Positions 38,656 through 44,864 of a stretch of DNA of 64,000 bases are shown here, piece by piece. The stretch covers positions 1-64,000 of the forward strand of contig JAGXFN010000002.1 of assembly GCA_024637195.1 (NCBI GenBank), in the 5' to 3' direction. The translations under genes and the position numbers were made by a program. A model generated the notes under the pieces. That model made no database searches, had not been told where the DNA came from, and saw nothing but the letters and a program-made list of their open reading frames with translations. The first letter of the stretch is position 1; every line of letters starts with the position of its first letter. Origin of the DNA: Arcobacter sp. GTDB lineage: Bacteria; Campylobacterota; Campylobacteria; Campylobacterales; Sulfurimonadaceae.

Positions 38656-40059
38656 ATGTACAAATTATTTTTTCTTTCCTTATCTCTTTTGCTTTTTTTA
38701 AGCGGATGCGGAATCGAGCCCACACCTCAGGAGAAGGCACGCGAAGAATCTATGGCGGCAATGCGCGCCAATATGGAAGCGCGGCAAAAGCAGATGTTTT
38801 CTAAGACAGAAGCGGCTTTGGCGGGTGAAACCGTTTATGCACCTGTGAAAAAAAGAGCAGACATAAAAGACGCAGATGATCCGACGGCCTATGTTTATGA
38901 GGATAAGGTCTTGAGCCTTAGCGAAGAAAAAGCATGGAAAGAGGCGGGCATAGACAACCAGGAGTATCCGCAGTGGAGAGCGCTTCAGATAGAACCAAAA
39001 GAGGCGAAGGAATGGAAAAACCTGCAGATCAGCCCTGCGGCGATCACTCTTTTTCACAATCAGGGATATACACCGAAAAAAGCCAAGCTTTTTATGGACA
39101 AGGAGTTTGAATCCCGTCCTGTCTTTTATGCGCAGTTCGGAACCCCCGTGTATGAGTTTGACACCATTTGTCAGGACGTTATCAAGCGCCAGCAGCCCCC
39201 GTTTGCTTTTTTGGAAGAGAGATGCCTTCCGTACATGAAAGACTCGCACAAAAACGAGGCGATAGGCCATCTTCTTGACGAGGCTAAGCTCATCAAAGGA
39301 ACGCTTGTTTTGGAGTATCTAGCGGAACTTCGCCGGCTTGCAGAGAAAAACAGCGCCATTCAGTCGGGTATGGAGGTGACAATCGAGGAGTTTATGGAGG
39401 AGGAGGACAAGGCAAATTTCACCTTTCTCTTTCCGCTTTTGGTCAATGAACCGACAAGAGAAGAGATGGACTTTATCGACCGCCACAAGCTCGCGTTGAC
39501 GAAAAGTGAGCGTTTCTACTCCTACCAAAATCCGCAATACTGGAAAAAGAGGATCGCGGCCCAGGATGCAGCAAAGGATGCGGCAGCACGCCAGGAGGCA
39601 CTCTTACGGGCAAAAGAACAAAGACAAAGTGCAAATCTGCAGGCAAAAGCCGCCGAAAAAGCCTTAAAAGCAAGGCAGGCCAGAGAGAAGATGGAAGCAG
39701 AGAAAAATGAGGCACTTCGTCTTCAAAGAGCACATGAACTCTGTGGGGCATATATCAAACAAGACGAACTTTCAGGCAAGGCGCTTTTGATCGAAGGCGA
39801 GGTGATCTTTAGTGTCGAAGAGCGGGGTTCGCGAATGTTTGGCTATGGGGTCAAGAGTGTTTCGGATCAGAAGATATACTTTATCCGTGACCCGCAAAAC
39901 TCCGTAGATACCGACATCAATACGAAGATCAGCTGGCAAGTCAAAACAATGGGACGGACAGAAGCTCTCTCAAAAATTGATGCCAAGAGCTATCGGTATG
40001 ATAGCAAGAGCAAAACAAAGTTTGATATGGCACTTTTAATGCATGAATGCAAGATTTAG
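38656..40059 (+). CDS. Lipoprotein with alanine/glutamate-rich coiled coil
   Basis: 467 aa. The type II signal peptide ends LSGC with Cys18 as the lipidation site. The mature protein is mainly helical, with a strong coiled coil (about 300-360) rich in Ala, Lys and Glu, then a small beta-rich C-terminal part (SGKALLIEGEVIFSVEERGS). I do not recognise the family. It stands 75 bases before the copper-type TonB receptor on the same strand. A link with envelope metal handling is possible by position only. Confidence 0.65.
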   Translation: MYKLFFLSLSLLLFLSGCGIEPTPQEKAREESMAAMRANMEARQKQMFSKTEAALAGETVYAPVKKRADIKDADDPTAYVYEDKVLSLSEEKAWKEAGIDNQEYPQWRALQIEPKEAKEWKNLQISPAAITLFHNQGYTPKKAKLFMDKEFESRPVFYAQFGTPVYEFDTICQDVIKRQQPPFAFLEERCLPYMKDSHKNEAIGHLLDEAKLIKGTLVLEYLAELRRLAEKNSAIQSGMEVTIEEFMEEEDKANFTFLFPLLVNEPTREEMDFIDRHKLALTKSERFYSYQNPQYWKKRIAAQDAAKDAAARQEALLRAKEQRQSANLQAKAAEKALKARQAREKMEAEKNEALRLQRAHELCGAYIKQDELSGKALLIEGEVIFSVEERGSRMFGYGVKSVSDQKIYFIRDPQNSVDTDINTKISWQVKTMGRTEALSKIDAKSYRYDSKSKTKFDMALLMHECKI

Positions 40060-40134
40060 ATATGCTCTTTAATCTTTTGTATTAATGCTTTTGTAACACT
40101 TCTGTTTTATACTTCGCCCAACTAAGGACGGAAT

Positions 40135-42201
40135 ATGAAAAAAATTATCAGTAAAACAATCGTGTTGTCTTTGGCATTGGCACCTATGCTCCTTGCCGAA
40201 ACAGTACAAATGCAAGAACTTCAGGTTGAAGCGAAGATCAATAGTGTGATGATCAGTGATGTCAGCGGCGAAGAGCTAAAATCGGCGGACTTGGCGGAGT
40301 CGCTAAGCGAAACGGTGCCGAGCATCTCTCTGGTACGCCGTAGCGGTATTGCCAATGATATCATCTTGCGAGGACAGAAAAAAGACAATATCAATGTCCT
40401 GGCGGATGGGACAAAGACTTATGGCGCCTGTCCAAATCGTATGGATCCTGCAACGTCACATATCTTGACAAACAACATTGAGAGCGTTGAGGTGACCGAG
40501 GGGCCATATGACGTCGAAAACTTCGGCACGCTCAGCGGCTTAGTCGACATCAAGACAAAAAAACCTTCCAAAGAGCTCTCCGGCGAGGTCAACCTAAATG
40601 CAGGAAGCTTTAACTATAAAAAAGCTTCGGCAACGGTAAGCGGCGGAAATGATAAAGTCCGTGTTCTTCTTAGTGCGTCAAAAGAGACAAGTGATCAGTA
40701 TAAAGACGGGAATGGGGATACTTTTGCAGATCAGATTGATAATTACATAGCAAATAATAGTGCAGGACTTTCTGGTATGCCTTTGGCACAATTTCAAGGC
40801 ACCGCGTATCAACCGCAATATAGAGACATGAAAGCTTTTGATAAAAAGACCTTTATGGGTAAACTCTATTTTAACCCAACAGACAACCAGGAGTTAAGAT
40901 TGAGCTATACAGCCAATCGAAGTGATGATGTTCTCTACGGTTCAAGTTCGATGGACGCACTCTACGACGACTCTGATATTTATAACTTAGAGTATTCGAT
41001 TGCAGATATGGGTTCACTCTCTAAAAAGCTTGACTTCCAGGCCTATCACTCAGAAGTAGACCACCCGATGTCAAATAAGTATCGTATATCTGGGACATTG
41101 CCCGCGAATGTTATGATTAGTGCTTTGAGTACATCCGTAGATGGTTTGAAATTGAAAAACTTGATGGAGCTAGGTGAAGCAGACCTTACAGTTGGACTAG
41201 ACGCAAGTCGTAGAAATTGGGATGGAGACTATACTAAAGGTGGGACTCTTTTGCCAACAAAAAGTATTGACGATGTAAATACGGATAACATGGCACTTTT
41301 TGCCAAGATAGAGCAGAGCTTCGGAAAAGTGGACCTTGAAGTCGGTGCACGTTATGACGATACGACAATCGACCATGGAGGGGCACTTCAGGACAATGAC
41401 TACTCAGCTTTTAGCGGATATCTTTCGGCGACATACAATGCGGATAAAGGCATACAGTACTTTGTAGGAGCGGGTAAATCTACTCGTGTTCCGGATGCTC
41501 GTGAGCTCTATTTTACTAGTAATTCTAGCGCAATCAGCGGTACGCCTACGCTGGATCAGACGAAGAACTACGAGATTGATCTCGGCGTCAAAAAACAGTA
41601 TGAAAACGCTTACGTAAAAACGAAAATTTTTCACTCGTGGTTAAAGGACTTTATCGCTTATAATGCCTCTAAGGCACCAGGAATGATGAGCATGCCAGGT
41701 GCTTATGATGTGTTTGAAAATGTAGATGCGAAGGTTTACGGAATCGAGTTCAGCACCTTTTATGCTGCTTCGGATGCCCTCTCTTTTGATGCAGGTCTGG
41801 CATATCAGCGCGGTAAGAAAGATTCCCCTTTGAGTGGTGCAACACAAAATGATAGAGACTTAGCAGAAATACCGCCGTTAAAAGTCAATGCCGCTGTGAA
41901 CTATGATACGGATATGACCAGTTCAAAGATCGAAGTGGTTGCTGCAGACAACTGGAGCAACTTCGACAGCGACAACGGAGAGCAGGCAATCTCAGGTTAC
42001 GCTATTGCCAATATCAAATGGAACAGAGACCTGACAAACGGGTTTGATATTACACTGGGTATGGACAATGTGTTTGACCACGCCTATGCGGTAAGCAATA
42101 CCTACAAAGATCTTACCCTATTGGCAAGTGCCGGAAACGAAGTCATCTTGATGAACGAGCCGGGCCGTTACGTCTACGCCAACCTTCGCTACCGTTTCTA
42201 A
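40135..42201 (+). CDS. TonB-dependent receptor, OprC/NosA-type copper receptor
   Basis: 688 aa outer-membrane receptor. A signal peptide ends LLAETVQMQELQVEA. The plug domain follows (about 40-145, with ILRGQKKDNINVLADGT), then a barrel ending in YRF. Copper-receptor features stand out. TYGACPNRMDPATSHI holds Cys99 and Met103 (CxxxM), and DHPMSNKY holds His310 and Met312 (HxM). In Pseudomonas OprC the copper site is built from a CxxxM and an HxM motif. Copper uptake is therefore the leading reading, plausible for a nitrous-oxide-reducing lifestyle. No riboswitch precedes it. The lipoprotein gene lies upstream and a Cache-GGDEF gene downstream. Confidence 0.85.
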   Translation: MKKIISKTIVLSLALAPMLLAETVQMQELQVEAKINSVMISDVSGEELKSADLAESLSETVPSISLVRRSGIANDIILRGQKKDNINVLADGTKTYGACPNRMDPATSHILTNNIESVEVTEGPYDVENFGTLSGLVDIKTKKPSKELSGEVNLNAGSFNYKKASATVSGGNDKVRVLLSASKETSDQYKDGNGDTFADQIDNYIANNSAGLSGMPLAQFQGTAYQPQYRDMKAFDKKTFMGKLYFNPTDNQELRLSYTANRSDDVLYGSSSMDALYDDSDIYNLEYSIADMGSLSKKLDFQAYHSEVDHPMSNKYRISGTLPANVMISALSTSVDGLKLKNLMELGEADLTVGLDASRRNWDGDYTKGGTLLPTKSIDDVNTDNMALFAKIEQSFGKVDLEVGARYDDTTIDHGGALQDNDYSAFSGYLSATYNADKGIQYFVGAGKSTRVPDARELYFTSNSSAISGTPTLDQTKNYEIDLGVKKQYENAYVKTKIFHSWLKDFIAYNASKAPGMMSMPGAYDVFENVDAKVYGIEFSTFYAASDALSFDAGLAYQRGKKDSPLSGATQNDRDLAEIPPLKVNAAVNYDTDMTSSKIEVVAADNWSNFDSDNGEQAISGYAIANIKWNRDLTNGFDITLGMDNVFDHAYAVSNTYKDLTLLASAGNEVILMNEPGRYVYANLRYRF

Positions 42202-42337: not shown

Positions 42338-44095
42338 ATGCGTTCACTGTATAAAAATGATGCACAGCTCGAAAAAAAACTTCTTAACTTTATTGCCATC
42401 GGCCCGCTGGTCTTCATCCCTTTTCTGGTCATTGTCATCCTCTTTTTTGCCATACGCTACAACCAGTTTCAGCTGGAACAATCCGTCGAAGAGATAAAAA
42501 GTTCCTATATCAACACCCAAAAAAATGTCGTGCTTTCCAAAGTTGAAAGTGCTGTTAAACTGATTGAATATAAACGTTCGATGACCAAAGAGCTCTTAAA
42601 AGAGAAGGTGAAAACACGCGTGGAGAGTGCGTATGCCGTAGCAAAGAACATTTACGAGCAGAACAAAGACTCGCATGACACCAAAAAGATACAGAAGATA
42701 ATCATAGACTCCCTTCGCCCTCTGCTGTGGAACAGGAGTGAGGGGTTTATTTTTATTCTCGACCTTGATGGGATCTTTTACCTCGCTCCTGATTATCTGC
42801 GCCATCTCGAGGGAAAAAGCATCATCGATTTTCAAGATGCCACCGGACGGTACGTGATACGCGAAGAGATTGCGCTCGTGAAAACCCAGGGCGAAGGGTA
42901 TCTGTGGGATACTTTTACTCGGCCGGGGTATAGTCCTGACATACAATTTGAACAGCTCGCCTATGTCAAAAAATTTGGTGCGTTCAACTGGTATTTCGGC
43001 TCCTCTGAATACATGAATAGCATGACAAAAGAGATGGAAAAAGAGGCGGTGAACCTGCTGCGCAGCCTCTCTAGTGAGAACAGCTCCTACTTTTTTATCA
43101 TGAATGATGCGGGGGATATTATCATGCATGGCCAGGATGCAAGTCTGGAAGGCAAAAATGCCCTCTCTCTTCGGGATACTGACGGCAAAGAACTGCTTCA
43201 CAATGCGAAGAGAAACACGCCGTCATTTGTAGAATACCGATGGAAAAATCCGAAAACAAAAAAGATCGAGTACAAAAACACCATCGTTGAAAAAGTCCCC
43301 AACAGCGACTGGATCGTAGGAAGCGGTTTTTATATGGACGAGCTTGAGACGATCATAGCGTCTAAAAAAACTGAACTCTACGAAACGAACAGAGCAAACT
43401 ATGAAAAGATCATCTATATCTCCATCGCGCTCTTGTTGATCTCTTTTCTTCTCTCTTATAAAATATCAAAGATGTTGCGCAGAAAGCTGAGCAGTTATGC
43501 GACCACGGTCGAGGCGAAAAACAGCGAGCTGACCGAGCTTAATCAATCCCTTGAAAAAAAGGTCTACGAACGCACACAAGAGCTCCACGATGCCTACAAA
43601 AAGATGAAACAGCTGGCGATAACTGATACGCTGACGGGGATCTATAACCGTTACCATTTCAACACGGCGCTGGAAAAAGAGATCTACCGGGCGCATCGCT
43701 ACGAGAGAAGCTTTGCGCTGCTGATGTTTGATCTGGATCATTTCAAAAAGGTCAACGACAGCTACGGACATGCAGTCGGCGATACCGTTTTGATACGCAC
43801 GTGCAATCTTGTTGCCGCTTGTCTTCGAGAGAGCGATATTTTCGCACGTGTAGGCGGAGAAGAGTTTATGATCATCCTGCCTGAAACACAGGAGGACGTT
43901 GCGCTGGAGATTGCAGAGCGGATTCGCAAAAGTGTCGAGACACATTCATTTGTGCCGATTAAACAGGTGACGATAAGTATCGGCTTAGTCAGGAATAGGC
44001 CGGATGAAGACTTGGAAAAGCTTCTTAATCGAGTGGATTCCGCTCTGTATGCGGCAAAAAATAGCGGACGAAACAGAGTAAGTCTGGGCGCTTAA
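42338..44095 (+). CDS. Cache-domain diguanylate cyclase
   Basis: 585 aa. A first membrane helix (about 28-50), a long periplasmic dCache-like sensor (about 55-350, with NPKTKKIEYKNTIVEKVPNSDWIVGSGFYMDE), a second helix (about 352-372) and a coiled linker precede the GGDEF domain. The active site is GGEEF (about 506-510), with RESD five residues earlier as inhibitory site; FDLDHFKKVND is the metal region. Signals bound outside should set c-di-GMP synthesis inside. It follows the TonB receptor by 136 bases. Confidence 0.92.
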   Translation: MRSLYKNDAQLEKKLLNFIAIGPLVFIPFLVIVILFFAIRYNQFQLEQSVEEIKSSYINTQKNVVLSKVESAVKLIEYKRSMTKELLKEKVKTRVESAYAVAKNIYEQNKDSHDTKKIQKIIIDSLRPLLWNRSEGFIFILDLDGIFYLAPDYLRHLEGKSIIDFQDATGRYVIREEIALVKTQGEGYLWDTFTRPGYSPDIQFEQLAYVKKFGAFNWYFGSSEYMNSMTKEMEKEAVNLLRSLSSENSSYFFIMNDAGDIIMHGQDASLEGKNALSLRDTDGKELLHNAKRNTPSFVEYRWKNPKTKKIEYKNTIVEKVPNSDWIVGSGFYMDELETIIASKKTELYETNRANYEKIIYISIALLLISFLLSYKISKMLRRKLSSYATTVEAKNSELTELNQSLEKKVYERTQELHDAYKKMKQLAITDTLTGIYNRYHFNTALEKEIYRAHRYERSFALLMFDLDHFKKVNDSYGHAVGDTVLIRTCNLVAACLRESDIFARVGGEEFMIILPETQEDVALEIAERIRKSVETHSFVPIKQVTISIGLVRNRPDEDLEKLLNRVDSALYAAKNSGRNRVSLGA

Positions 44096-44231: not shown

Positions 44232-44864
44232 TTAAGGTCTATACTTTCTTTTACCTAGGTTTTTCCTCGATGTAAAAAAAGCCAAAACAAACATGTGCCC
44301 CAGACTATAGAGCATAATACAAAATGCCACAACTCTAAAAAATCCTGCCAATACTTTATGATAATTAAGAAGATGCAGCTGTGTCAGTATATAGTTGAAG
44401 TCATGCTTCCCATCAACGCCTAAAAAAGATTTACTTGCTGGAAGAAAGAGTCCCTCGCCTGCAGTTGACATGTACCAGGCTGAGTAATGCAAAGAGATGC
44501 CAAGAAAGAAGAGCCCTATAAAGTAGGCAAAGAATTGGCCCTTTTGTTTATAGTAATAGCCGATTAAGAAGGGAAAAAGAAGCTGAAAGACGGTGCCGTT
44601 TGCTGCTGCAACAAATTCCGGACAATGAAGTAAATAGCAGACCCCATGGCCTCCTTCATGTACAATCCCGAGTGTTTTGTTCACTATGAACAAATAGAGC
44701 ATAAAGAGTTGCCTGCCAAGACTGTCACCGACAAGATGGGTATTGCCATAGGGAGCATACTTGATAAACATCAAAAATGAGAGAAAAAACAATACGACTA
44801 GTGCTTTTTTAACGGTTGGAGTCATCTGTGTTGTCTGTTCTGTCTTGAAATCCTCACGATCCAT
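44232..44864 (-). CDS. Membrane protein with HEGGH motif (M50-like)
   Basis: 210 aa, five or six membrane helices (the first about 21-36). The motif HEGGH (His69, Glu70, His73) in TLGIVHEGGHGVCYLL has the HExxH form of zinc metallopeptidases, positioned in or at the edge of a helix as in site-2 (M50) proteases. The second, aspartate-bearing motif of that family is not evident; DFNYIL near the end is a weak candidate. It could be an intramembrane protease or a non-catalytic relative. The gene stands alone between two opposite-strand genes. Confidence 0.5.
   Translation of the reverse strand: MDREDFKTEQTTQMTPTVKKALVVLFFLSFLMFIKYAPYGNTHLVGDSLGRQLFMLYLFIVNKTLGIVHEGGHGVCYLLHCPEFVAAANGTVFQLLFPFLIGYYYKQKGQFFAYFIGLFFLGISLHYSAWYMSTAGEGLFLPASKSFLGVDGKHDFNYILTQLHLLNYHKVLAGFFRVVAFCIMLYSLGHMFVLAFFTSRKNLGKRKYRP

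Follow-up and report, generated by a model that had tools for sequence, protein, structure and literature searches.

Within a 64,000-nucleotide stretch of the Arcobacter sp. assembly GCA_024637195.1 (contig JAGXFN010000002.1, positions 1 to 64,000; hereafter, the window), the forward strand carries at 40135–42201 the gene of a 688-amino-acid TonB-dependent transporter (TBDT) of the OprC type, identified from the list of open reading frames (ORFs), Pfam, a phmmer search against the PDB and a profile of relatives. Both PF07715 (Plug) and PF00593 (TonB_dep_Rec) scored above their Pfam cut-offs, and a signal peptide (M1–A21; 40135–40197) and a TonB box (VQMQELQVEA, residues 24–33; 40204–40233) are predicted from the residues at its start. 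The plug contains a CPNRM segment (40429–40443) with Cys99 and Met103, and the barrel an HPM segment (41062–41070) with His310 and Met312. CxxxM and HxM each occur once in the protein, and Cys99 is its sole cysteine. The joint presence of the motifs exceeds chance, both being present, at any position, in 102 of 20,000 shuffles of the receptor. Judged by its sequence, the gene very probably encodes an outer-membrane copper importer.

OprC of Pseudomonas aeruginosa (6FOK, 6Z8Q and variants) belongs to the same TBDT family, and OprC entries were the only PDB matches at E ≤ 1e-3 (six of six distinct sequences; best 6e-28, 101 bits). In the phmmer alignment, Cys99 and Met103 fall on OprC C143 and M147, and His310 and Met312 on H323 and M325, the stretch with the latter pair being weak when taken alone (11.2 bits). 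A profile of 22 relatives placed the same four ligand pairs and scored OprC at 200.6 bits, followed by PhuR (haem; 76.3), YncD (48.9) and FepA (44.5). According to PMC8610252, C143, M147, H323 and M325 coordinate copper in the OprC crystal, Met286 is a methionine-track residue and a ligand of Ag2, and NosA of Pseudomonas stutzeri has the same motif. The equivalent of Met286 in the window receptor is Met273 (40951–40953). The receptor differs from OprC in its low overall similarity (the 101 bits above), in most methionine-track positions, which are not conserved, and in an additional conserved histidine, His109 (40459–40461).

The conservation of these residues was followed in an alignment of 76 TBDTs, comprising 66 Campylobacterales receptors (a subset of those found, two of them from one tandem pair), four proteobacterial relatives from plasmid records (two annotated as copper receptors) and six other TBDTs of the host genome. 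The full Cys/Met/His/Met set was present in 65 of the 66 Campylobacterales receptors and in all four proteobacterial relatives, and in none of the six other host TBDTs. In the only exception (G035, L091), glycine replaces the copper cysteine, while the plug methionine and both barrel ligands are kept in 66/66. Of the 688 positions, 35 reach an identity of 98% or more, and all four ligands belong to these. Met273 is likewise conserved in 66/66 and 4/4, and no other methionine of the window receptor outside the site is kept in more than 55% of the 66. Neither CxxxM nor HxM was found in the six other host TBDTs (647–845 amino acids examined, from open frames of 649–1055 amino acids); some of these are cut by locus ends, and the second TBDT described below was checked at full length. 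His109, six residues past Met103, occurs in 64 of the 66 and in none of the four proteobacterial relatives; it may be a lineage feature adjoining the copper site, with a possible role as an extra ligand or second-shell residue. In one locus (L111 of G100), two copper receptor genes lie in tandem, 20 bp apart.

A wider comparison places the receptor in a divergent branch. Among the NCBIfam models, the TonB-dependent copper receptor model TIGR01778 was the best at 198.5 bits, below its cut-off, followed by the haem (120.6), siderophore (99.1), ZnuD (50.6) and B12 (43.9) models. Calibrators from Klebsiella, Pandoraea and Thioclava scored 809, 810 and 463 bits with TIGR01778, and other Campylobacterales receptors 207 (G126), 223 (G056), 183 (G170), 136 (G018) and 718 (G050). 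Because the cut-off was missed, the window receptor is not filed as an equivalog member; by its sequence it is a divergent OprC-type branch that would be OprC-like in its working. In a receptor tree (short search, LG+G4, several long branches; short receptors L079 of G016 and L071 of G029 left out), which was used only to place the linkage to the cco genes and the position of G050, the window gene belongs to a distinct Campylobacterales group with a support of 96. The G050 receptor (L094) lies inside the proteobacterial group, is a proteobacterial-type OprC and was possibly acquired by transfer. The six other host TBDTs group apart, and the dividing branch is weak (approximate likelihood ratio support, SH-aLRT, 61). 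A siderophore, haem or cobalamin receptor was rejected, as the PDB matches, the best NCBIfam model and the profile all favour OprC and copper. A sequence-only reading of this stretch had pointed to the two motifs, proposed copper uptake and set the copper type against siderophore and cobalamin receptors. Its four residues were correct and align with the OprC ligands, no best match or clustering with the other receptor types was seen, and the OprC-type site supports copper uptake as the probable function.

The distribution of the receptor was examined in 178 genomes of the order, namely that of the host, at 89% completeness, and others of 90% or more. A receptor match (E ≤ 1e-30) was found in 101, ccoN in 155 and clade II NosZ in 72. 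In the 177 genomes other than the host, 56 had both receptor and NosZ, 44 the receptor only, 16 NosZ only and 61 neither (p = 3e-6), and ccoN was present in 95 of 100 receptor genomes versus 59 of 77 receptor-less ones (p = 5e-4); these counts and p values are descriptive, as related genomes are not independent. Among the 44 receptor genomes without a NosZ match, 41 have ccoN, and three receptor genomes have neither.

Gene order in the relatives ties the receptor to copper enzymes. In 24 of the 101 receptor genomes, which belong to three families, the coordinates put the receptor gene 0.2–3.8 kb upstream of a co-oriented ccoN; it sits between carA and ccoNOQP, an order checked in 12 of them. 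It directly precedes ccoN in G039, G058, G073 and G110, is separated from it by a thioredoxin-like gene in G056, and by one to three genes (DsbD_2 and/or regulators) in G053, G107, G128, G082, G070, G203 and G118. On the receptor tree, this context turns up in three distinct positions and requires at least three changes. In four genomes of one genus other than that of the host (G152, G161, G170 and G205), the receptor gene stands directly before nosZ; NosZ scored above the model cut-off in all four and NosD in the one tested, and a tonB-like gene precedes the receptor, model-tested in G152 alone and below the cut-off there. The exbB and exbD genes adjoin the receptor gene in G047 (by models) and in G057, G038 and G131 (by similarity), with tonB as well in G047 and G131. 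In G031 (by models) and G016 (by clustering), the receptor gene is flanked by a DsbD_2-family gene upstream and a double-NosL gene downstream. The double-NosL protein beside the receptor (L058:4066-5172 and L079) is approximately 365 amino acids long and has two NosL stretches. These contexts, as read from the sequences, point to copper delivery.

The host genome itself encodes the copper enzymes that such a receptor could serve. A cbb3 oxidase is present (ccoN above the cut-off), and its cco operon (L049) is preceded by a DsbD_2 gene in the carA–ccoN slot where some relatives carry the receptor. An aa3-type oxidase (CtaD/CoxB) is encoded with a SCO1/SenC gene at L050, CoxB scoring above its cut-off and CtaD reaching 635 of the 671 bits required. 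A copper-type P-ATPase gene lies near cco, and two TonB_C matches were above the cut-off. In the search of this 89% complete genome for nosZ, the only match was partial (21 bits, 8e-5, model positions 518–576 of 578) and falls inside coxB, and NosL gave no match. The sister genome G004 (99% complete, 85% receptor identity) likewise gave no NosZ match above 24 bits. A NosZ-dedicated role in the host was rejected, as neither nosZ nor NosL was found in the 89% of its genome that is covered. In G001, of the same genus, the nosZ match at C61:17793-19585 is in two pieces with internal stops, reflecting decay or assembly errors. The suggestion in the sequence-only reading that the copper serves nitrous oxide (N2O) reductase or cytochrome oxidase is supported for the oxidase, by the cco linkage in relatives and a box common to these genes in the host genome, and not supported in this organism for the reductase. 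The NosA-type link to NosZ that it named holds for the four genomes of one genus and is not supported for the host, and copper-handling genes exist elsewhere in the host genome (SCO1/SenC and the P-ATPase), with no recognised copper gene beside the receptor in the window.

Upstream of the receptor gene, an 11-bp direct-repeat box, TTAATGCTTTTGTAACACT, occupies 40082–40100 on the forward strand, with three mismatches in 16 to the consensus TTAACACT-N3-TTAACACT, and a predicted −10 hexamer, TATACT (40108–40113), begins 7 bp past it. The box is the single site in the window at ≤3 mismatches. A first pattern was derived from four receptor promoters of the same genus, and its 0-mismatch match at 40082 is by construction, because the promoter of the window receptor is one of the four. 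The refined consensus was chosen after the receptor boxes of G056 and G058 were known. With it, 48 of 62 receptor genes have a box (≤3/16 mismatches, ≤220 bp upstream), compared with 17 of the 681 other genes that these loci contain; the control count is raised by true neighbours such as nosZ, and the receptor count omits two of the 64 receptor loci (L071 and L074, with <150 bp upstream). Outside the genus, at ≤2 mismatches and a spacer of 3, the box precedes 34 of 58 receptors versus 9 of 630 controls, a count that such neighbours likewise raise, or 32 of 56 receptors when G056 and G058 are left out. Ten alternative spacers gave 0 or 1 of the 58 each, and 50 scrambles of the half-site averaged 0.34, with 4 at most. 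The first, genus-only pattern at ≤2 mismatches gave 19 of 58 outside receptors versus 3 of 630 controls. In other genera, 36 of 43 receptor boxes are followed, 7 bp on, by at least four of the six letters of TATAAT. With the TATAAT-like −10 element at this distance, the −35 region lies under the repeat, an arrangement known from activators that bind as tandem dimers, such as OmpR-type regulators.

The same box marks a small set of genes elsewhere in the host genome. Scanned at ≤2 mismatches, the first pattern has four sites there and the reversed pattern has none. Besides that of the window receptor, they lie 61 bp before DsbD_2-ccoNOQP (a perfect repeat), 132 bp before sco-aa3 (reversed) and immediately ahead of a second TBDT gene; these three are independent of the building of the pattern, and with a wider pattern five matches were counted, four of which are listed. 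The second TBDT (L148:7880-11402; C15:197879-201401) has no CxxxM, HxM or cysteine, its nearest PDB entries are PqqU/YncD, and its nearest NCBIfam model is a siderophore subfamily, below the cut-off. Directly after it lies a gene for a Fer4_5 (4Fe-4S) membrane protein. On the strength of its promoter, this TBDT is a candidate second route for copper or a copper chelate. In G005, a genome of the same genus without an OprC-type receptor match, a different TBDT (L147:3-1460) has a box 40 bp upstream with two mismatches. Both G005 (L158) and G022 (L172) have ccoN and no receptor match, and the box is still found near cco.

In 1.02 Mb of fetched loci, 52 sites were found at ≤2 mismatches, compared with 1–2 expected in simulated sequence and 0–6 for eight other spacers. 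All 52 have, within 245 bp downstream, a receptor, nosZ, NosL-type, DsbD_2-cco, sco-aa3, response regulator or Met-rich EF-hand gene; the share of receptors is inflated by the choice of loci around them, two sites are inside ORFs called upstream of the receptor, and a few are in divergent promoters with an ambiguous target. Among cco promoters fetched in their own right, the box stands between carA and DsbD_2 in 10 of 13 DsbD_2-led cco operons. For ccoN without DsbD_2, a site occurs in 8 of 27 cases (seven reversed, five with three mismatches), and for nosZ promoters, likewise fetched apart from the receptor loci, in 6 of 20 (five reversed). Among the genome-wide pattern matches listed, in which about one locus per genome was kept and many chance matches inside genes are included, sites precede a PCuAC chaperone gene (G037) and a multicopper oxidase gene (G043) in genomes without a receptor match; the G037 site is inside the ORF as called, approximately 40 bp before the methionine that starts the PCuAC signal peptide. 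Immediately ahead of the receptor, G001 and G002 have response-regulator and kinase genes, with similar genes upstream of it in G131 and G152, and these regulators read as OmpR-type. A literature search that covered few subscription papers found neither the TTAACACT-N3-TTAACACT repeat nor any report tying an OprC-type receptor of Campylobacterota to cbb3 or nosZ.

The immediate neighbours of the receptor gene in the window appear to be of another kind. Upstream, a lipoprotein-like ORF of 467 amino acids (38656–40059, forward strand) matches nothing in Pfam or NCBIfam at E ≤ 1e-3 and is found near the receptor in own-genus loci only. Downstream, a dCache_2-GGDEF protein (42338–44095, forward strand; Pfam) has no relative within the other receptor loci compared, and its gene is probably unrelated to the receptor. 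On the reverse strand, the gene at 44232–44864 encodes a 210-amino-acid membrane protein that has an HEGGH motif, seen on inspection, and matches no Pfam or NCBIfam model. A copper operon formed by the window neighbours was rejected, as these are signalling, transport, other or unknown genes and, in other genera, are not found again next to the receptor. In other genera, frequent receptor neighbours resemble, by eye, alanine racemase and agmatine-deiminase genes.

Taken as a whole, the observed homology, ligand conservation, linkage in relatives and presence and position of the box are best explained, we consider with good confidence, by an OprC-type importer that serves the respiratory oxidases and belongs to a regulon read through the box by an OmpR-type protein. 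From these observations we infer transport, the identity of the metal and its use, together with the regulator, its signal and the direction of regulation. Copper would be captured between the plug (Cys99 and Met103) and the barrel (His310 and Met312), Met273 would provide a thioether ligand further out, and TonB would pull the metal into the periplasm, where in the host it may be used mainly for the cbb3 and aa3-type oxidases. The receptor gene would be one of a small box-bearing set that includes DsbD_2-ccoNOQP and sco-aa3, and the box at the −35 region is probably read by a response regulator of the OmpR type. Import and the synthesis of copper enzymes would thereby be adjusted together, and a copper-supply regulon for respiratory oxidases is the likely mechanism.

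Several alternatives to this importer were weighed. The receptor might import copper chelated by a small molecule or peptide, a route proposed for CrtA of Bordetella pertussis, with the four residues serving only to select the metal. CrtA is likewise a copper TBDT tied to respiratory oxidases, and imports chelated copper according to PMC12914433; the methionine track that handles free Cu(I) in OprC is mostly unconserved here. However, the CxxxM–HxM residues that hold the ion in OprC are retained and no entry named CrtA or BfrG is among the matches in the PDB copy searched, and we regard chelate import as unlikely. That the receptor takes up zinc, nickel, silver, haem or a siderophore, with the motif kept by chance, is most improbable: the haem, siderophore, ZnuD and B12 scores given above reflect general TBDT similarity, but TIGR01778 scored best, all six PDB sequences were OprC, the ligand set is exact and the gene is linked to copper enzymes. 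A NosA-like receptor dedicated to nitrous oxide reductase could be argued from the four genomes with the gene directly before nosZ and from the 56 of 177 genomes with both genes (a descriptive count). The host nevertheless lacks a detected nosZ or nosL, NosZ went unmatched in 44 of the 100 receptor genomes, 41 of which have ccoN, and in three families the receptor gene is upstream of ccoNOQP instead of nosZ; this role is quite improbable, though slightly less so than another ligand.

The box invites a different alternative, namely that the repeat is the site of a regulator of respiration or redox state (oxygen or nitric oxide) and that copper genes are included because they are respiratory. 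Its targets are largely respiratory (cco, aa3 and nosZ), and HP1043/HsrA of Helicobacter pylori, an epsilonproteobacterial regulator, reads direct repeats of TTTAAG centred 11 bp apart, according to PMC5253667. The spacing is that of the receptor box, but the repeat is unlike TTAACACT, and sites also stand before the PCuAC chaperone, multicopper oxidase and NosL-type genes and the receptor itself. We consider a redox regulator doubtful, if less so than chelate import. The copper two-component system CrdRS of H. pylori, whose CrdR binds a 21-nt site, offers a further likeness; in the literature consulted (PMC8610252, PMC12914433, PMC9927306 and PMC5253667), the role described for it is copper resistance.

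Returning to the copper importer coupled to the oxidases, a number of observations weigh against it. The TIGR01778 score of 198.5 bits is short of the equivalog cut-off of 472.45, and the divergent relative G018 scores higher with the haem model (149.8 bits) than with TIGR01778 (136). Besides Met273, the OprC methionine-track positions are mostly unconserved, and an AlphaFold model made from five sequences had a mean pLDDT of 47.8, with approximately 22 for the Cys99/Met103 region, which makes its plug unusable for judging ligand distances. Fifty-nine genomes have ccoN without the receptor, so it is not obligatory for cbb3, and no recognised copper gene was found by Pfam or NCBIfam among its neighbours in the window. 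As for regulation, the box of the window receptor is degenerate (3/16 mismatches) and among the weaker ones, and no box at ≤3 mismatches was found in 14 of 20 nosZ and 19 of 27 DsbD_2-less ccoN promoters. Sites also precede genes with no known copper role, such as those for DUF4395 (G043), a Pfam-less ORF (G059) and a Trans_reg_C-kinase protein (G056), and the regulator was not located in the host genome.

More tentatively, and somewhat short of an even chance in our estimation, the box may define a copper-limitation regulon throughout Campylobacterales, in which TTAACACT-N3-TTAACACT is read by an OmpR-type regulator, at times encoded beside the receptor. The forward box in the −35 region would activate the receptor and the DsbD_2-led cco operon, while the mostly reversed box before nosZ, ccoN without DsbD_2 and sco-aa3 would repress or retune these other copper consumers. 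Scarce copper would thus be budgeted between oxygen and N2O respiration. The second host TBDT with its Fer4_5 protein and the different TBDT of G005 would be parallel copper routes under the same switch.

Copper import in Gram-negative bacteria is poorly known, according to PMC8610252 and PMC12914433. Here, one receptor type, whose ligand set is near-universal among the sequences examined, is tied by gene order and a promoter element to cytochrome oxidase and NosZ. If the explanation given above is true, the supply of copper to oxygen respiration and to N2O reduction would be testable through one receptor or one 19-bp site.

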